Shown: piece after piece, positions 16,426 to 62,245 of the stretch
Layout: each line of letters starts with the position of its first letter
Numbering within the stretch: position 1 is the first letter of the stretch
Assembly (NCBI RefSeq): GCF_000196655.1
Contig: NC_014253.1
Location: forward strand, 1,054,001 to 1,118,000
Source: Methanohalobium evestigatum Z-7303
Lineage (GTDB): Archaea; Halobacteriota; Methanosarcinia; Methanosarcinales; Methanosarcinaceae
Direction of reading: 5' to 3'
Length of the DNA: 64,000 nt
Made by a program: the position numbers and the translations under genes
The notes under the pieces: model-generated
Database searches by the model: none
What the model saw: the letters and a program-made list of their open reading frames with translations, nothing else
Told to the model about the DNA's origin: nothing

Positions 16426-16455
16426 AATAGTCACCACTGATTATTGTTTCTATTT

Positions 16456-16572
16456 TACGAAAGTGGGGCAACAGGGGTAAGTGAAAGCCAACGACTTTAG
16501 TCGTTCTCTTTAAATCAAGGATTTAAAGATATCTTTAAACTCCGTTTAAAGAGTGATTAAACAACCCCGTTG
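16456..16572 (+). repeat. multi-hairpin element, copy 1 (upstream of tnpB 1)
   Basis: An outer stem pairs CAACAGGGGT (16469-16478) with ACCCCGTTG (16564-16572). It encloses three perfect hairpins: AACGAC/GTCGTT (16490-16505), CTTTAAATC/GATTTAAAG (16508-16528, 3-base loop) and TCTTTAAAC/GTTTAAAGA (16532-16552, 3-base loop). A 37-base left segment beginning at 16456 is shared almost exactly with the reversed copy near 31.3 kb. The element lies about 90 bases before tnpB 1. It may be a left transposon end or a structured RNA. The first hairpin resembles the right-end hairpin of TnpB element 3 (62255-62274). Confidence 0.75.
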
Positions 16573-16665
16573 ATGTTTGATAAGTTTTATGATAAACATT
16601 ATAATCGCTAACATTAGGTAAAAATTATATAGTTTCAACACGTATAATCAGTATCAGGTAAGTGG

Positions 16666-18012
16666 GTGGAGTCGATAGTTCGTAAAGAAGGTCAAAACTG
16701 CAGGAATCTGAGATTCAAGATACATCCTACTCTTGAACAGGAGAAGAAACTGAATGAAACTTTAGAGTACTGCAGGTCGACCTGGAACCATCTTCTGTCC
16801 ATCAGAGTAGATTTATACGATAGGTTTGATCTGTCAGTATCTAAATCATCTCTGGAAAAATACCTGAAAAATCTGGACTATCCTATACATTCATCAGTAA
16901 GACTGGATGTATTCCAGAGATTATGTTCCGCTTATGACAAGTTTTTTGATGATATCAAGAACGGGAGACTGAAAAACACCAAACCTAAAAAAGGGATGTT
17001 CGTCAAGAGAAAAGACATACCATGTGGGAACAATTCATCCGGATTTATCAAATACGATGGAATTCTTCCGAAAGGTCACCCGAAGTTCAAGAGTAAAGAA
17101 GATTTCAGTAGTTTCAGATATAAACAGCATGGAAACGGGTGGAAACTTGAAGATAACAAGTTATACCTATCCAAAATAACCGGTAAATCAAATCTCATCA
17201 AAATTGATATTGACAGATTGCCAGATGGTGAACTGAAGACCTGTACCCTCAAGAAGGAAGGCAAACAATGGTTCGCATATCTGACAGTAGAATTGCCAGA
17301 AAACCCAGTTCCATCTACTCCAGAAAACGCTGTTGGCATAGACTTAGGACTGAAATCTTTCATAACAACTTCAAACGATGATTTTGTCGAACCACCACGA
17401 TTCCTCAGGAAAGCTGAGAAAAGGCTTGCTAAAGAACAGCGAAAATTGTCGAGAATGGAATTCAAATCAAACAACTATAAAAAGCAGAAGCAAAAAGTGA
17501 ACAGGATTCACAGGAAAGTAGCATCTGCTAGAAACCATTTCTCACATTGTTTGAGCAAATTGTTGGTTGAGAAATACGACCTGATTGTATTCGAGGATCT
17601 AAAAATAAAAAATCTTGTTAAAAATAACAAACTGGCTAAATCAATCTCCGATGTAAGCTGGAACAAACTGGTTCAGCATGTGACCTATAAAGCTGCTGAA
17701 AGAGGTAAGATTGTAGACAAGATTAATCCCGACAATACTACACAGGTCTGTTCTCATTGCGGAACCAAGAAAAAAGAGAAACTGAGATTGGGTGATAGAA
17801 TATTCTACTGCAGTAAATGTGGATTAGAAATCGACAGGGATCTTAATGCTGCAGTCAATATTCTGACAAAATCATCGTACTATAACCCAATGCATACCGT
17901 GGGGCTCGCGGGAATGAACGGCTGTGGAGATGGTGCCTCTACGACTGGTCTCGGTATCGGTTCGCAAGTACCGCCGATGAATCAGCAAACGCTCAACCTA
18001 TTAAGAGGTTGA
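16666..18012 (+). CDS. tnpB: TnpB, IS200/IS605 family (zinc-ribbon subtype)
   Basis: A 448-residue TnpB, the RNA-guided nuclease of IS200/IS605 (IS1341-type) elements and relative of Cas12. The RuvC catalytic residues are intact: Asp226 in VGIDLGLKSF, Glu310 in LIVFEDLKI, and the Asp of IDRDLNAAVN (about 390-392). The zinc ribbon is complete (CSHC at 362-365 and CSKC at 382-385). The N-terminus has the FKIHPTLEQEKKLNETL helix-turn-helix typical of the family. The C-terminal tail (GCGDGASTTGLGIGSQVP) overlaps the region expected to encode the guide-RNA scaffold. No tnpA transposase accompanies it. GTG start at 16666 is uncertain. Confidence 0.9.
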   Translation: MESIVRKEGQNCRNLRFKIHPTLEQEKKLNETLEYCRSTWNHLLSIRVDLYDRFDLSVSKSSLEKYLKNLDYPIHSSVRLDVFQRLCSAYDKFFDDIKNGRLKNTKPKKGMFVKRKDIPCGNNSSGFIKYDGILPKGHPKFKSKEDFSSFRYKQHGNGWKLEDNKLYLSKITGKSNLIKIDIDRLPDGELKTCTLKKEGKQWFAYLTVELPENPVPSTPENAVGIDLGLKSFITTSNDDFVEPPRFLRKAEKRLAKEQRKLSRMEFKSNNYKKQKQKVNRIHRKVASARNHFSHCLSKLLVEKYDLIVFEDLKIKNLVKNNKLAKSISDVSWNKLVQHVTYKAAERGKIVDKINPDNTTQVCSHCGTKKKEKLRLGDRIFYCSKCGLEIDRDLNAAVNILTKSSYYNPMHTVGLAGMNGCGDGASTTGLGIGSQVPPMNQQTLNLLRG

Positions 18013-29823: not shown

Positions 29824-30612
29824 TTAGATAAGATGTTCAATTTCAGAAGGATGTACAGGTGATGTAGAATCCAGTGATATGGGTGTTACAGAAATGTGCC
29901 CGTTATGTACAACAGCATGTACATCTGACCCTTCTTTATCATCATTAATATGGTCTCCCGCTATCCAGTAATAGGCTCTGCCGCGCGGGTCGTATCGCTC
30001 TTCTATTGACATAGTGAAAAATTTACGGGCAAGCTGTGTGATTTCAATCTCTGTATCATCTTCTGCCATATGTGGAATATTTACATTCAACAGGTCTACA
30101 TTATCCGGAAGACCGTGATGGATTACTTTTTTCGCTATTCTGTTGATGATGTTTTTCCCAACTTCAAAATCATGCTGGTAATCCCTTAAATCATCAAATT
30201 TTAGTCCTTCATCAGTTACCTGTATGGATGCCGCGATTGCAGGTATACCATAACTTGCACCTTCAAGAGCAGCACCTATAGTACCGGAAGTTGTTACAGT
30301 ATCTGTACTGATATTTTCACCAATATTAAAACCTGAAAGCAAAAGGTCTGGTTTTTCATCCATGAGTTTAAAAATCCCAAGAATTACTGAATCAGTTGGA
30401 GTCCCTCCGATAGAATACGCTTTGACACCATCTATATTGGCTTTTGTAATCCTTAAAGGTTCAAAAAGAGATATTGAACGTCCTACACCGCTTTGCTGTA
30501 CTGCAGGTGCTGCAATGGTGACATCTCCGAGGTCTTTTATACTGTTGTATGCAGCACTGATACCCGCCGAATATACTCCATCATCATTAGTAAGAAGAAT
30601 TTTGTTAGACAT
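29824..30612 (-). CDS. surE: 5'/3'-nucleotidase SurE
   Basis: A 262-residue metal-dependent phosphatase that dephosphorylates nucleoside monophosphates. The metal-binding motif ILLTNDDGVYSAGI at residues 5-18, APAVQQSGVGRSIS, GGTPTDSV and LSGFNIGEN are all conserved. The C-terminal D(P/T)RGRAYYW region is typical. It is a single gene on the minus strand with an upstream AT-rich promoter. Confidence 0.92.
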   Translation of the reverse strand: MSNKILLTNDDGVYSAGISAAYNSIKDLGDVTIAAPAVQQSGVGRSISLFEPLRITKANIDGVKAYSIGGTPTDSVILGIFKLMDEKPDLLLSGFNIGENISTDTVTTSGTIGAALEGASYGIPAIAASIQVTDEGLKFDDLRDYQHDFEVGKNIINRIAKKVIHHGLPDNVDLLNVNIPHMAEDDTEIEITQLARKFFTMSIEERYDPRGRAYYWIAGDHINDDKEGSDVHAVVHNGHISVTPISLDSTSPVHPSEIEHLI

Positions 30613-30668
30613 TGGTTATCCACATTGTTTACTAATGTTTTATAGTTAATGGGATTTCAAAGGGAAAA

Positions 30669-30678
30669 AGTTTAAATC
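30669..30678 (+). promoter_or_regulatory. BRE/TATA promoter facing the structured noncoding region
   Basis: GAAAAAG followed by TTTAAATC matches the archaeal BRE-TATA consensus closely. Transcription would begin near 30700 and run away from surE into the structured region. No protein gene follows for 750 bases. Confidence 0.5.
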
Positions 30679-30699
30679 TCTTTCTAATTTGCATTATCA

Positions 30700-30935
30700 A
30701 AGTAGGGTCAACTACTAACCGCTAAACCGGTTAGCTTGTCCTTCCATCTCTTAACTTCGACTACTAGCAGAAGCTAAGCGGAGGACATTAGGAAGGCTGA
30801 CAGCTCCCATATTGCGTTGTTCTATCGGGATTCAGTTTAACTTTCAGAGTTAGAAGCATGTTATCCCAAAATATGTTATACACATATAAACTAAAACAGG
30901 AAGCCACTTGGTCTTTAGCCAAGTGGTAGTTCACA
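30700..30935 (+). ncRNA. candidate structured ncRNA or miniature IS200/IS605-type element
   Basis: No open frame is convincing here, but the sequence folds well: CTAACCG/CGGTTAG (30715-30734, 6-base loop); a long irregular hairpin TGTCCTTC/GGAGGACA (30737-30787) enclosing CTTAACTTC/GAAGCTAAG; and CCACTTGG/CCAAGTGG (30904-30926) with the loop TCTTTAG. The last hairpin, followed by TAGTTCAC, looks like an IS200/IS605 right end. A good promoter lies 25 bases upstream. Conserved motifs of RNase P RNA and of the SRP RNA apical loop were not found. Both a stable RNA and an internally deleted transposon are possible. Confidence 0.45.
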
Positions 30936-31130
30936 GCTACTATGCATCACTGTCTGCACCGCATCGTTTGTGCTCGACACCAGGCAGTATTTGATGGAAC
31001 CTGATGATACACAAACAACTGATTAAACAATGTCTTACATCAGGCAACTTGCTTAAAGCAATTGTACACTGAAAGCATTGCTACATCTATAATACTGTAT
31101 ATACAATACTAAAATAAAAAAAAATATTGA
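30936..31130 (+). other. intergenic, further inverted repeats, no gene seen
   Basis: Inverted repeats continue: CTGTCTG (30950-30956) with CAGGCAG (30981-30987), and CCTGATG (31000-31006) with CATCAGG (31038-31044). They might belong to the same transcript as 30700-30935. No coding potential is seen. Confidence 0.35.
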
Positions 31131-31146
31131 TTCAAAAAGCAATAAC

Positions 31147-31301
31147 CAACGGGGTTGTTTCATCATTCTTTAAACTTCGTTTAAAGATATTGGTAAATTT
31201 TCAATTTACCAAGTTTAAGTTTAACTCTAAATTTTTTAATTTAGAGTGTTTTGATTTAAAGAAAACGGTTAGAAACCGTTGGCTTTCACGTACCCCTGTT
31301 G
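31147..31301 (-). repeat. multi-hairpin element, copy 2 (solo, reversed)
   Basis: Read on the minus strand, the outer stem CAACAGGGGT/ACCCCGTTG is the same as in copy 1. It encloses a first hairpin AACGG...CCGTT, two extra hairpins not in the other copies (ACTCTAAATT/AATTTAGAGT and TGGTAAAT/ATTTACCA), and the last hairpin TCTTTAAAC/GTTTAAAGA. About 37 bases beyond the first outer strand, starting ACGAAAGTGGGG, match copy 1. No tnpB gene is attached. Confidence 0.7.
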
Positions 31302-31452
31302 CCCCACTTTCGTAATCAATTTGTTCAGTCTATCCTAATTTAGATTATAATCCTAACCTTTACACCATTACGACTAAATATTTAAATAGTTATATGGTTA
31401 TTCGAGTGAAAATTTTATAATAACAGCAGTTTAAAAGTATCGGAATGCAACC

Positions 31453-32133
31453 ATGCTGGACATAAAATACCTATTTAAAGATTTAATCAGGACAAGAAAG
31501 ATTCAAAACTTTATAAACAACCGATTAAAAGATGAATCCATCCTCTTTCTACCGAAAAACAATATAAAATATATCTGTACAAACGATGCAGTATTTGAGA
31601 ACAGCCCTCTGCTTTACACCCTTATGCAGGTAGAAAGTGACTACATCTTTGATGATTTGAATCCTGATGATATTGTTCTGGATATAGGTGCAGGCATCGG
31701 TGCGTTTTCTCTTAAAGTTCACCAGAAAGTAGACCACATATACGCGGTAGAACCTTTATGGAAAAATGAATTGTCCAAAAACTGTGAATTATCAGGTGCT
31801 GACAATGTGACTATTCTGCCCTATGCATTAAGCAGTGATGATCTATCCATAGAATATGAGGATAGGAAAGCAAATGTAGAGGGTAAAACCCTTTCAGAGC
31901 TTAAAGAACTATGCGGCGGACATGTAGATTTTTTGAAAATGGATTGTGAAGGGGGAGAATGGAGTATAAAACCTCGCGAGCTTAAAGGTATCAGGAGAAT
32001 TGAAGCCGAGGTTCACAGTTTTAATGGTGAAAATATGAATGATTTTGTAAAAATGCTGGAATCAAATGATTTTATTGTCAGAAAGAAAAAAAATGCCTGT
32101 AATAATATGCTAATTCATGCATGGAAACTTTAA
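31453..32133 (+). CDS. FkbM-type SAM-dependent methyltransferase
   Basis: A 226-residue Rossmann methyltransferase. The SAM site is DIVLDIGAGIGAFSLK (about residues 74-89), followed by an acidic IYAVEPLW after strand 2. FLKMDCEGGEW is the FkbM-family signature near the active site, and IEAEVHSF follows. FkbM enzymes O-methylate hydroxyls, often on sugars or polyketides, so a glycan target is possible; no partner genes are adjacent. ATG is at 31453. It converges on the peroxiredoxin gene with a 2-base gap. Confidence 0.8.
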   Translation: MLDIKYLFKDLIRTRKIQNFINNRLKDESILFLPKNNIKYICTNDAVFENSPLLYTLMQVESDYIFDDLNPDDIVLDIGAGIGAFSLKVHQKVDHIYAVEPLWKNELSKNCELSGADNVTILPYALSSDDLSIEYEDRKANVEGKTLSELKELCGGHVDFLKMDCEGGEWSIKPRELKGIRRIEAEVHSFNGENMNDFVKMLESNDFIVRKKKNACNNMLIHAWKL

Positions 32134-40952: not shown

Positions 40953-42289
40953 TAATTGATAAACTTAGTAACATTAGATAACTAATTTTATTATCAGTTA
41001 CATTCGTGAGATATACTCACCGGGTGTAACGCTACACCCTCTATCCCATCTAAATCAGGGATTGCTTTCTTCATAATATTATAGGCACCATTTACATCGG
41101 CATTGATTATAGTGCCGTTAGATGATCGGAAAAGCCCTCTTTTAATTCTTTTACCAATATAAGAAGTCCTTCTCTCAACTGGTTCTCCATCGAGGAACGA
41201 ACACTTCGATGTATAGGATTCTTCTTGCTCAATCACTTTCAATCCAACATCTTCGGCTTTGTATTTTAGTTGTTCAGGAAGTCTATGAAATGGAATCTGT
41301 GTAAACTTTTGGTTATTGCGCTTACCCATATACACTTCTTGTTTCCACCCTTCGTTATATCCAATGACTAGTGTGCCGATGTTGTGTTTGACACAAAAAT
41401 CAACAATCCTTTTACTTGCTTTATGGAAGAAGTCATTGATTTTCATTTTATATTTATGGTATAGTTTTTTCAGTTTTTTGCTGTTTTTGATGCCTAATTT
41501 ATCATAAATGGATTTTAGTTTTCCAGATTTTTTGTTGTAGAACTGGTTTATTGATTTTGCGACTCCGCCCTTAATAACAATCGGTTTTTCACCGATGTTA
41601 TTCACCATAGTGACGATATTATTAATTCCCAGGTCGATACTGGCGATGTTTTCTTCGTTTGGATCTGGTGTTTCTAAATCCTTCTCGTAAACAATTTCAC
41701 ACTTATAACCAACTCCCATAGGAATAATTCGAACTTGATTTAGTTTAGTGTCATCTGTAAGACGAGTTTCTACTTGCAGGTTCGTTTTCTTCGGTAACTT
41801 GAGGACTCCGTTTTTTATCTTACACTGTTGGTTTGTGAAAGTGAGAATATTTTCGCCATTTTTCTTTTTATATTTTGGTGGGTTGGGTTTTGAATAGTAA
41901 TTTTCTGGGTTCTTTTCCCAGTCTTTAATTGATTGGAAGAAAGATTTCCAGTTTTTATCCATCAGTTTTAGTGTCTGTTGTGCTGTTTGTGTGGGTAAAA
42001 CAGAATAATTTTCAGTACCTTTTAACTGTTTATTTAGTTCTTCGTATCTTACCCAATCACCATCATCATTTAGAGATTGTTTAACTATGAAGTTTGCCTG
42101 GTTGTATAAGTTCTTGGAAATATGACACAACCAGCTAAGGTTTTTATCATAATTTAGATATATCGTTTCGGTTCTTTTTACCATAACAATCTCCATGATG
42201 AATATAATTGATTAACTGATTATATTTTCTGTTATCAATTCTTATATATTTTACTTATAAAGTATACTATATAAAAACTCTTGATTTTG
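40953..42289 (-). mobile_element. IS200/IS605-type (IS1341-like) TnpB element 2
   Basis: The boundaries are inferred from the in-frame rejoining of the flanking gene (TTG at each side), giving about 1337 bases. It contains tnpB only. Subterminal hairpins are present: TTACAA/TTGTAA (40939-40955) near the right end, and an AATTGAT/ATCAATT stem near 42200-42235 at the left end. The exact termini need a search. Confidence 0.5.
40994..42184 (-). CDS. tnpB: TnpB, IS200/IS605 family (subtype without zinc ribbon)
   Basis: A 396-residue RNA-guided nuclease-like protein. RuvC residues are present: Asp in ASIDLGINNIVTM, Glu in GTLVIGYNEGWKQE and Asp in INADVNGAYNIM. Where other TnpBs have a CxxC...CxxC ribbon, this one has SYTSKCSFLDGEP followed by SYIGKRIKRGLFRSS, with only one Cys. 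The start at 42184 (MVKRTETIYL) follows GGAG, rather than the ATG 12 bases upstream. It appears to have inserted in a small gene. It is related to the third copy at 60953. Confidence 0.9.
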   Translation of the reverse strand: MVKRTETIYLNYDKNLSWLCHISKNLYNQANFIVKQSLNDDGDWVRYEELNKQLKGTENYSVLPTQTAQQTLKLMDKNWKSFFQSIKDWEKNPENYYSKPNPPKYKKKNGENILTFTNQQCKIKNGVLKLPKKTNLQVETRLTDDTKLNQVRIIPMGVGYKCEIVYEKDLETPDPNEENIASIDLGINNIVTMVNNIGEKPIVIKGGVAKSINQFYNKKSGKLKSIYDKLGIKNSKKLKKLYHKYKMKINDFFHKASKRIVDFCVKHNIGTLVIGYNEGWKQEVYMGKRNNQKFTQIPFHRLPEQLKYKAEDVGLKVIEQEESYTSKCSFLDGEPVERRTSYIGKRIKRGLFRSSNGTIINADVNGAYNIMKKAIPDLDGIEGVALHPVSISHECN

Positions 42290-60726: not shown

Positions 60727-60800
60727 TATTAAGGCTTTGGTCGTTAATATAATTTATCAACAAGTTAAGGTATGTTAAAGTTCATGAGAAAGGGGTATAG

Positions 60801-60897
60801 GGGGTCAAAGGAAACCAACGACTTTAGTCGTTCTCCTTAAATCAAAGATTTAAGGATATCTTTAAACTTGGTTTAAAGAGTGAGGAATTTAGACCCC
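60801..60897 (+). repeat. multi-hairpin element, copy 3 (upstream of tnpB 3)
   Basis: The outer stem GGGGTC (60801-60806) pairs with GACCCC (60892-60897). It encloses AACGAC/GTCGTT (60817-60832), CCTTAAATC/GATTTAAGG (60835-60855) and TCTTTAAAC/GTTTAAAGA. Compared with copy 1, the second stem changes T-A to C-G on both strands, and the outer stem has different bases that still pair. It lies about 55 bases before the tnpB 3 start. Confidence 0.75.
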
Positions 60898-60952
60898 ATT
60901 GCTTAAAAGAACAAAATTTTTTATTTTAGGAAAACATTATATATATAATACA

Positions 60953-62245
60953 ATGAAAATCACCACCAAAAACTATCTACGGATGAACAAGCAGCAGTAC
61001 TGGATAGTTGACACTTTGAGTAAACTATCCAAAAACCTGTATAATGTCGGGGTGTACAATGTCCGACAGTACTATTTCTACAATAACAAGTTCTTACCGT
61101 ACACCAATAATTACCATTATTGCAAGGATAATGATAATTACAGCCTGTTATATAGCGATAATGCTCAACAGATTCTCAAAATCGTAGATAGGACTTTCAA
61201 GAGCTATTTCAGACTGCTTAAAGAAAGGAAAAAAGGAAACTACAACCGACCCATTAATACACCAGGTTACTTGGACAAAAATGGACGGTTTGTATTGATA
61301 TATCCCGCTCAAAGAATGTCTATTAAGGGTAGATATTTCAAACTAGGCATGAGTAGGGAATTCAAAAAGCAGTACGGACTTAATGGTGATGAATTAACTT
61401 TCAAACTACCCGACCATATCAATCCTGATGAATTGAAAGAAGTCAGGATTGTTCCAAAACATGACGGTAAATTCTACCAGATGCAGTATGTATATGATAA
61501 AAAACTACAAGACATGAATCTTGATAAAAATCAATATCTATCAATCGATTTAGGTCTTGATAATTTTGCAACCTTTGTGGAAACATCCACAGGTACAGCC
61601 GAGATAATTGACGGTAAACACATCAAATCCATTAACCAGTTCTACAACAAAGAAAAGGCAAGGTTGCAGGGTGTGAAAGACAAACAGGGTATGGAACACA
61701 AGTTCACCAAAAGATTGAGTAGGCTTACTAATAAGCGAGATAACAAGGTGGACGAGTTCCTGAACAGGTCGGTTGATTACATTGTTAAAACCTGTATAGA
61801 TAAAGACATCGGCAACATTGTTATCGGTGAACTGAAAGAAATCAAACAGGAACAGAATATCGGTAAAAAGAACAATCAGAATTTCCAGAGCATACCATAT
61901 TTCCTGTTCAAAAGTAAACTACAGTCCAAATGTGATTTGTACGGAATCAACTACATAGAAGAGGACGAATCCTATACAAGTAAAACCGATGCACTGTCTC
62001 TGGAACCCATCAGAAAACATGAAGAATATATGGGTAGAAGAATCAAGAGAGGACTGTTCAAGTCTTCCACCGGTCAATTGCTCAATGCCGATGTTAATGG
62101 TGCATTAAATATCTTAAGAAAAGTAGTCGGTGATTCAATCCAAAGGATAACCGATAGAGGTCTCGTCAGCAGACCGGAGAGAATAAGGGTTACTTTCGAA
62201 CCTGAAAAGCGACCAGCCTTCTCTCGAATTAAATTGTCAGTTTAA
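60953..62245 (+). CDS. tnpB: TnpB, IS200/IS605 family (subtype without zinc ribbon)
   Basis: A 430-residue TnpB related to the one at 40994. RuvC residues are in LSIDLGLDNFATFVE (Asp), IGNIVIGELKEIKQE (Glu) and LNADVNGALNIL (Asp). SYTSKTDALSLEP and EEYMGRRIKRGLFKSS replace the zinc ribbon, with no Cys at all there. ATG at 60953 is chosen; upstream in-frame codons lie in the multi-hairpin element. The hairpin at 62255-62274 marks its right end. It abuts a truncated histidine kinase. Confidence 0.9.
   Translation: MKITTKNYLRMNKQQYWIVDTLSKLSKNLYNVGVYNVRQYYFYNNKFLPYTNNYHYCKDNDNYSLLYSDNAQQILKIVDRTFKSYFRLLKERKKGNYNRPINTPGYLDKNGRFVLIYPAQRMSIKGRYFKLGMSREFKKQYGLNGDELTFKLPDHINPDELKEVRIVPKHDGKFYQMQYVYDKKLQDMNLDKNQYLSIDLGLDNFATFVETSTGTAEIIDGKHIKSINQFYNKEKARLQGVKDKQGMEHKFTKRLSRLTNKRDNKVDEFLNRSVDYIVKTCIDKDIGNIVIGELKEIKQEQNIGKKNNQNFQSIPYFLFKSKLQSKCDLYGINYIEEDESYTSKTDALSLEPIRKHEEYMGRRIKRGLFKSSTGQLLNADVNGALNILRKVVGDSIQRITDRGLVSRPERIRVTFEPEKRPAFSRIKLSV

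Follow-up and report, generated by a model that had tools for sequence, protein, structure and literature searches.

A hairpin cluster in Methanohalobium evestigatum read as the left end of a mosaic IS605-type element with tnpB-less relatives and nested double-hairpin units

We propose that a prominent cluster of hairpins in the genome of Methanohalobium evestigatum Z-7303 is the DNA left end (LE) of a non-autonomous, mosaic IS605-type element whose ends are partly borrowed and whose extra hairpins are inserted units, a reading to which we give a probability of roughly three in four. The cluster occupies positions 31147-31301 of the 64,000-nt stretch of DNA analysed here (the window), where an initial annotation had described it as a solo copy of a multi-hairpin element. 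The interest of the case lies in a family of related elements with a standalone omegaRNA and in the nested double-hairpin units, and neither the standalone omegaRNA part nor the nesting was found in print in the open-licence literature. The features are collected in Table 1; G000 denotes the genome that holds the window and G029 that of another (sister) species of the same genus.

Table 1. Features of the hairpin cluster, of the insertion that contains it and of two related copies, in window coordinates.
Feature	Position	Strand	Basis
Left end (LE), outer stem around four hairpins	31147..31301	-	Folding of sequence, alignment of LEs
TTAC target left of element	31312..31315	-	Empty site in sister species reads TCAC
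GAAAG foot, candidate guide sequence pairing with TTAC target	31283..31287	-	IS608 pairing rule
Near-terminal hairpin of LE, AACGGTT..AACCGTT	31264..31280	-	Fold, LE alignment
Added hairpin, first half of a nested double-hairpin unit	31224..31247	-	Unit whole in L107 and L108
Complete double-hairpin unit (23-nt hairpin, TA, 21-nt hairpin)	31167..31212	-	Pattern and tandem-hairpin scan
Putative AT-rich promoter-like stretch between LE and RNA	31082..31146	-	Sequence
Whole mosaic IS200/IS605-type insertion, 605 bp, without full gene, PATE-like	30707..31311	-	Empty site in G029
5' part of standalone omegaRNA gene, 3' core and guide lost	30938..31081	-	Model R1, similarity
41-nt right-end scrap of TCAC-type TnpB element, inverted	30894..30934	+	Genome similarity search
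5' end of third-family tnpB (M..LTLKVKLNPDR)	30810..30894	-	Similarity
3' end of same gutted tnpB and right end, TGAC with foot CAAG	30707..30808	-	Similarity, end reading
Copy 1: TTAC-type LE, one double-hairpin unit, before tnpB 16666-18012	16455..16575	+	Similarity, pattern
Copy 2: TCAT-type LE, one double-hairpin unit, before tnpB 60899-62245	60781..60905	+	Similarity, pattern

The Cluster as a Left End

The cluster is an IS200/IS605-type left end on the minus strand rather than a free RNA gene, since its start coincides with both the target tetranucleotide and the breakpoint of an empty site in the sister species, and since a near-terminal hairpin with its foot is present. As in other left ends of this type, a short fixed target is kept at the left and the element begins right after it. 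By the IS608-type rule the hairpin foot at an IS200/IS605 end pairs with the target tetranucleotide, which here joins AAAG to TTAC, and both variable pairings of the rule are kept in all of eight ends from five element types picked by eye, a sample that left out the left ends of L013 and L014.

The outer stem is as claimed in the initial annotation, with 31293-31301 pairing with 31147-31154 (CAACAGGGG/CCCCGTTG, read from 31301 to 31147 on the minus strand), and none of 200 dinucleotide shuffles folded as well as the cluster, either as RNA (z -5.1) or as DNA (z -6.7). The flanking bases, about 37, that were said to match copy 1 do match, over 39 nt at 97% complementarity (31277-31315 against 16455-16493), but they are the element's own first bases after TTAC and not flank. 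Likewise the two hairpins described as added are present (31224-31247 and 31190-31212) and lacking in copy 1, but the first inner hairpin of copy 1 is broken up, and the second of the two is the first hairpin of the unit at 31167-31212. Nor are such hairpins special to this copy, for units of the same kind recur in the LEs of several TnpB families as well as in right ends.

Searching the whole genome with the cluster region gave at least 47 matches, with 40 of 69 candidates scored; 33 stretches around matches were taken, of which 32 were examined and the last overlaps the window. TTAC directly precedes an LE of the cluster type at 20 places in G000 (19 besides the one in question), and comparison of LEs shows that types with zero, one or several inner hairpin units all occur. 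The window LE is best read as a form with three units that probably underwent a deletion between two like hairpins.

The initial annotation had raised the possibility of a free-standing RNA gene captured by TnpB elements. A capture of this kind, whether of a leader, an attenuator or a free RNA gene, is improbable, even though the cluster folds well as RNA and is found a short way upstream of tnpB (copies 1 and 2) or of the standalone RNA (the solo elements described below), because it starts exactly at the target tetranucleotide and the empty-site breakpoint and has what an IS605 LE should have, a near-terminal hairpin with its foot. The inner units also vary among copies from none to one or several. 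Two solo copies at an orthologous site, L060 and L099, retain the RNA without the LE, which speaks for a capture, but they look like copies that have lost their LE, and the direction of descent, discussed below, points from the tnpB element to the solo RNA. Rfam gave nothing at gathering thresholds in the window and nothing up to E 0.1 for the loci L018, L019, and L184.

The 605-bp Insertion

What had been annotated as a solo copy forms one end of an insertion of 605 bp. The search for an empty site in relatives, which the initial annotation had recommended, succeeded in the sister species, where contig C15 of G029 joins the counterpart of window 30501-30708 directly to that of 31312-31600 at 96% identity, with the breakpoint at the same base as the LE start. 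Since G029 lacks exactly this segment, 30707-31311 either arrived as one insertion or was precisely excised in G029, and such an excision would look identical to an insertion in the window genome. The target reads TCAC in G029 and TTAC in the window, which could be a point change; as TCAC is the target of the third family in Table 1, there may instead have been an older insertion of that family whose left end was replaced. Of the other candidates that were scored (40 of 72 in G000 and 40 of 60 in G029), none repeats the mosaic order, so that a single empty site is the support for movement as one unit, and two events plus a deletion may be an alternative history of the composite. The neighbouring open reading frames are not transposases but encode SurE (29824-30612) and a methyltransferase (31453-32133).

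The best explanation of the left 374 bp is that they derive from a family of elements without tnpB. Covariance model R1 of the omegaRNA of that family matches the window at 30866-31081 with 142 bits, the alignment being poor beyond about 30938, and the 3' core of the RNA is missing. This truncated omegaRNA should be dead, whereas both ends of the element are present. The 41-nt scrap next to it occurs at nine other places with 98-100% identity over 41-42 nt, and at further ones over 33-35 nt. The annotation was right that a full tnpB or transposase gene is absent, but the insertion is not free of tnpB, as fragments from another family lie at 30707-30894.

Such a make-up recalls the PATEs of Haloquadratum walsbyi, which are described as transposase-free, IS605-related elements (PMC3119063). 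Like them, the insertion is too short for a transposase, is a strain-specific insertion, has IS605-related palindromes near both ends and lacks terminal inverted repeats, its ends differing (GAAAGTGGGG.. versus ..GTTGAC); no target duplication was seen when the window was compared with the G029 empty site. It differs from what that text describes in being a mosaic, whose left and right ends come from two families, and in having relatives in which a promoter-like stretch is followed by a structured standalone omegaRNA; omegaRNA is not mentioned in the accessible part of that 2011 paper. A classical MITE is ruled out by the lack of terminal inverted repeats and of a target duplication. Of the earlier suggestion of a MITE mobilised in trans, it is therefore the second half that survives, as a non-autonomous element moved in trans fits the empty site, the relatives without tnpB and the Y1 TnpA encoded elsewhere.

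A decayed tnpB fragment beside the cluster had been named in advance as the finding that would reduce it to the end of a deleted element. Such a fragment is indeed there, but it belongs to another family than the LE. We consider it unlikely that a tnpB-bearing element inserted here, lost its middle by deletion and was later scrambled by other elements. The LE and the tnpB fragments come from different families with different targets, and the left part is common to and collinear with elements that lack tnpB (11 full-RNA copies in two species), which is why it was probably without tnpB before it arrived. Such a history would nonetheless account for the start and the end of a third-family tnpB within the same insertion, for the TCAC of the G029 empty site, which is the target of that family, and for the truncation of the window omegaRNA, and some PATEs of Haloquadratum are described as products of core deletion (PMC3119063).

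On our preferred reading of a mosaic element with borrowed ends, the insertion would move as single-stranded DNA, and a Y1 TnpA encoded elsewhere and acting in trans would recognise, at the left end, the near-terminal hairpin and the pairing of AAAG with TTAC and, at the right end, which is borrowed, the pairing of CAAG with TGAC. There are four Y1 TnpA matches in G000, two of them within one interrupted gene, and the genes have open frames of 178 and 121 aa, with a stop in the third; G029 likewise has four, of which one has a frame of 178 aa. Two elements that encode TnpA (L062 and L063) have an outer stem and two tandem hairpins beside tnpA, an LE-like build as judged by eye.

Relatives With a Predicted Standalone OmegaRNA

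The recommended search for other solo copies recovered 11 full standalone omegaRNA copies in the two species, three in G000 (L015, L018, and L060) and eight in G029 (L095, L096, L097, L098, L099, L107, L108, and L118), together with partial copies in the window, at L100 and on contig C20 of G029. Both ends are seen, with nothing tnpB-like between them, in eight of the full copies (L015, L018, L095, L096, L097, L098, L107, and L108); L060 and L099 have no LE and L118 begins at a contig end. The layout runs from the LE through an AT-rich promoter-like stretch to an RNA of about 230 nt that ends in the right-end hairpin and TCAG. Nine of the 11 have GAAC as the foot of the right end, whereas L015 has CAAC and L060 AAAC, and these two break the pairing rule. 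L018 sits in a block of 1,551 nt in G000, in place of which G029 has 46 nt (boundaries approximate). By a DNA search of 111 genomes of the family, which gave matches in six of them, the solo family is confined to the genus, the four genomes outside it having short matches only.

Aligned over their full length, the 11 copies have a mean column identity of 91%. Their consensus structure has 67 pairs with 96.6% of cells paired, as against 30-47% in slid controls, although the alignment from which the structure was obtained is also the one on which it was scored, a circumstance in its favour. Nine pairs have changed on both sides, compared with a shuffled mean of 4.7, and none of 500 shuffles reached nine; further pair types, one of five covariation measures, did no better than chance (33 versus 32.6 in shuffles, 257 of 500). 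Compensatory changes thereby support the modelled structure of the solo RNA.

The omegaRNA (or reRNA) of TnpB elements such as ISDra2 ends at the right-end hairpin, and the flank beyond it serves as the guide. The full-length solos have a covarying scaffold that ends in the same way, and over roughly their final 110 nt they are almost identical in sequence to the 3' end of elements that carry tnpB (L019 and L021, for example). They differ from the omegaRNA of TnpB elements in being encoded without tnpB and in their 5' half. Model R1 matches all of seven L019-type tnpB loci tried and neither of two tA-type loci (L020 and L024). In a search of the class, R1 matches were present in 31 of 237 genomes, and loci were obtained for 18 of the 29 genomes of other genera with a match; at 14 of the 18 there is an L019-like tnpB whose 3' end overlaps the R1 match on the same strand. 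Because the core is common to solos and tnpB elements and R1 fits the 3' ends of tnpB elsewhere, the evidence points from the tnpB element to the solo RNA rather than the reverse. The solo RNA would thus descend from an omegaRNA that overlapped tnpB, its 5' half probably having changed once coding was lost.

Candidates for a solo RNA in other genera (L184, L186, L187, and L189) are indistinguishable from decayed right ends; none of seven TnpB queries matches near the R1 match at L184, L186 or L189, and at L187 there is only another TnpB, on the opposite strand from the R1 match. A domesticated solo RNA at L060/L099 was considered and rejected as well. The two are the one orthologous pair found among the solos, with flanks alike, the LE gone in both and the first 20 nt after TCAG unchanged, but the RNA differs at 21 of 231 positions (9%), as compared with 21 of 420 in the left flank, three of 179 in the right flank and none, apart from one gap, in the 79 nt compared directly before the RNA. 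An RNA that diverges more than its flanks argues against a function at that site, and we take it as a decaying copy. The L060/L099 omegaRNA adjoins a tRNA-like gene.

Double-Hairpin Units

The hairpins that had been called added belong to a recurrent unit of 45-50 nt made up of a hairpin, TA, and a second hairpin. In 337 kb of the same genome, a sample enriched for IS ends and including the whole window, a scan for double hairpins in tandem, with each stem perfect over a length of 8 or more, gave 23, and three Markov controls gave 0, 0, and 0. Twenty of the 23 are units, two combine a unit hairpin with the neighbouring right-end hairpin and one (at 928098) is unrelated. A strict pattern, which finds only units like those at IS ends because it was written from them, was run over 111 genomes of the family and gave 24 matches in G000, 28 in G029 and, among the 109 others, a single one (G106) that is taken as chance since its arms pair at only 7/9; the reversed-pattern control gave 0. 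The 24 of G000 (20 on contig C1 and four on C2) all lie within IS605-type elements when their contexts are read by eye, with nine in left ends, 14 in right ends and one in a tnpB gene. The fourth tnpB of the window (40994-42196) has none of the three pattern matches of the window near it.

Across the examined loci there are 25 distinct variants of the unit, G106 included, and the four outer arm bases, which the pattern leaves free, take eight sequences (TCTT, TTGG, ACTC, TCCT, ACTT, TTTG, AACT, and TTCT), all with perfect partners. Among the 16 distinct arm pairs, pairing is perfect in nine and imperfect in seven, and of the seven two are hybrids of two units and two come from G106.

The comparison of near-identical copies with and without units suggests that these were inserted, into the LE and into the loops of one another. 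Right ends of the TCAC family carry a 50-nt insert in L079, L160, L157, and L030 and have none in L068, L069, L070, L071, L074, and L039. The tnpB of L162 has a 50-nt double-hairpin insert relative to that of L032, at a site shared with three copies in G029. As to nesting, the loop of the first hairpin in L011 is longer than that of copy 2 by a nested insert of 99 nt, L107 and L108 have a second unit in the loop of the first, and in L011 and L014 a third unit lies within the hairpin of the second.

An account without any mobile unit, in which the extra hairpins stem from slippage or template switching during single-strand replication, is possible but rather doubtful. Palindromes are prone to both processes, some hairpins are hybrids whose two arms come from different units (L098 and L119), and the window copy itself resembles a deletion between two like hairpins. 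What slippage leaves hard to explain is the precise 50-nt insert in tnpB as compared with its intact paralogue, and it sits poorly with a closely similar unit turning up in contexts as unrelated as a tnpB gene, right ends and the LEs that belong to several families.

If the units are indeed inserted, they resemble by description the SMR-A repeats of Haloquadratum, given in the 2011 paper as repeats of about 110 bp that insert in near-terminal palindromes of IS605-type transposons and PATEs and whose mode of mobilisation is there called enigmatic (PMC3119063). Both are short non-coding repeats with no known mobiliser, and 23 of the 24 G000 units lie, as judged by eye, at element ends in the same kind of target; the units differ from what is described there in measuring 45-50 nt, in consisting of two adjacent hairpins in place of prominent terminal inverted repeats, in nesting in one another and in lying, in one case, inside a tnpB coding region. 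Mitochondrial DNA has double-hairpin elements that are likewise tiny units of two adjacent hairpins found at many sites. The likeness is one of description; the units here are archaeal, and the copies found lie in IS605-type elements.

Two Possible Layers of Parasitism

Taken together, the sequences can tentatively be read as two layers of parasites on IS605-type elements in one archaeal genus, the first being tnpB-less omegaRNA elements that borrow both TnpA and TnpB, and the second nesting units of 45-50 nt that enter the hairpins of IS605 ends by a single-strand route; we hold this joint reading to be possible rather than probable. Since the solo omegaRNA of about 230 nt ends in the right end, the flanking DNA would be its guide. 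The RNA may be loaded in trans into TnpB from sister elements that share its omegaRNA core, and the loaded TnpB would cut donor sites vacated by excision, so that an element without tnpB could persist. The tiny double-hairpin units, for their part, would have inserted in the LE and then in one another's loops.

A search of titles and the beginnings of abstracts in the open-licence literature found no report of archaeal omegaRNA elements without tnpB, and no terms for such elements were found in PMC12558985. The system provides a natural test of whether standalone guide RNAs allow TnpB to work in trans for non-autonomous elements. Its very small hairpin units, which were found here in IS605-type elements only, can be compared exactly with copies in the same genome that lack them. 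If the two-layer reading is true, then a tnpB that bears a unit has been kept in several copies in two species, perhaps by translational bypass. In both species the unit breaks the tnpB frame, always at one site, the four copies being L162 (G000 C1:1042555), L163, L164, and L165; the frame of L162 is open on either side of the unit, and the paralogue L032 is intact and without the unit.

Other composites of ends were seen as well. L030 (G000 C2:140687) is a minimal element of less than 200 bp in which a TTAC left end is fused to a TCAC right end with a unit. At L025, L028, L029, and L031 an element of about 200 bp or longer, whose ends resemble CTTGTCCGACAATT../..AATTGTCGGACAGC, occupies the loop of an LE hairpin, and the LEs of L027 and L032 are broken by such a loop-sited element as well. 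At L028 and L029 it links an LE half to a right-end half, and hence the core is gone.
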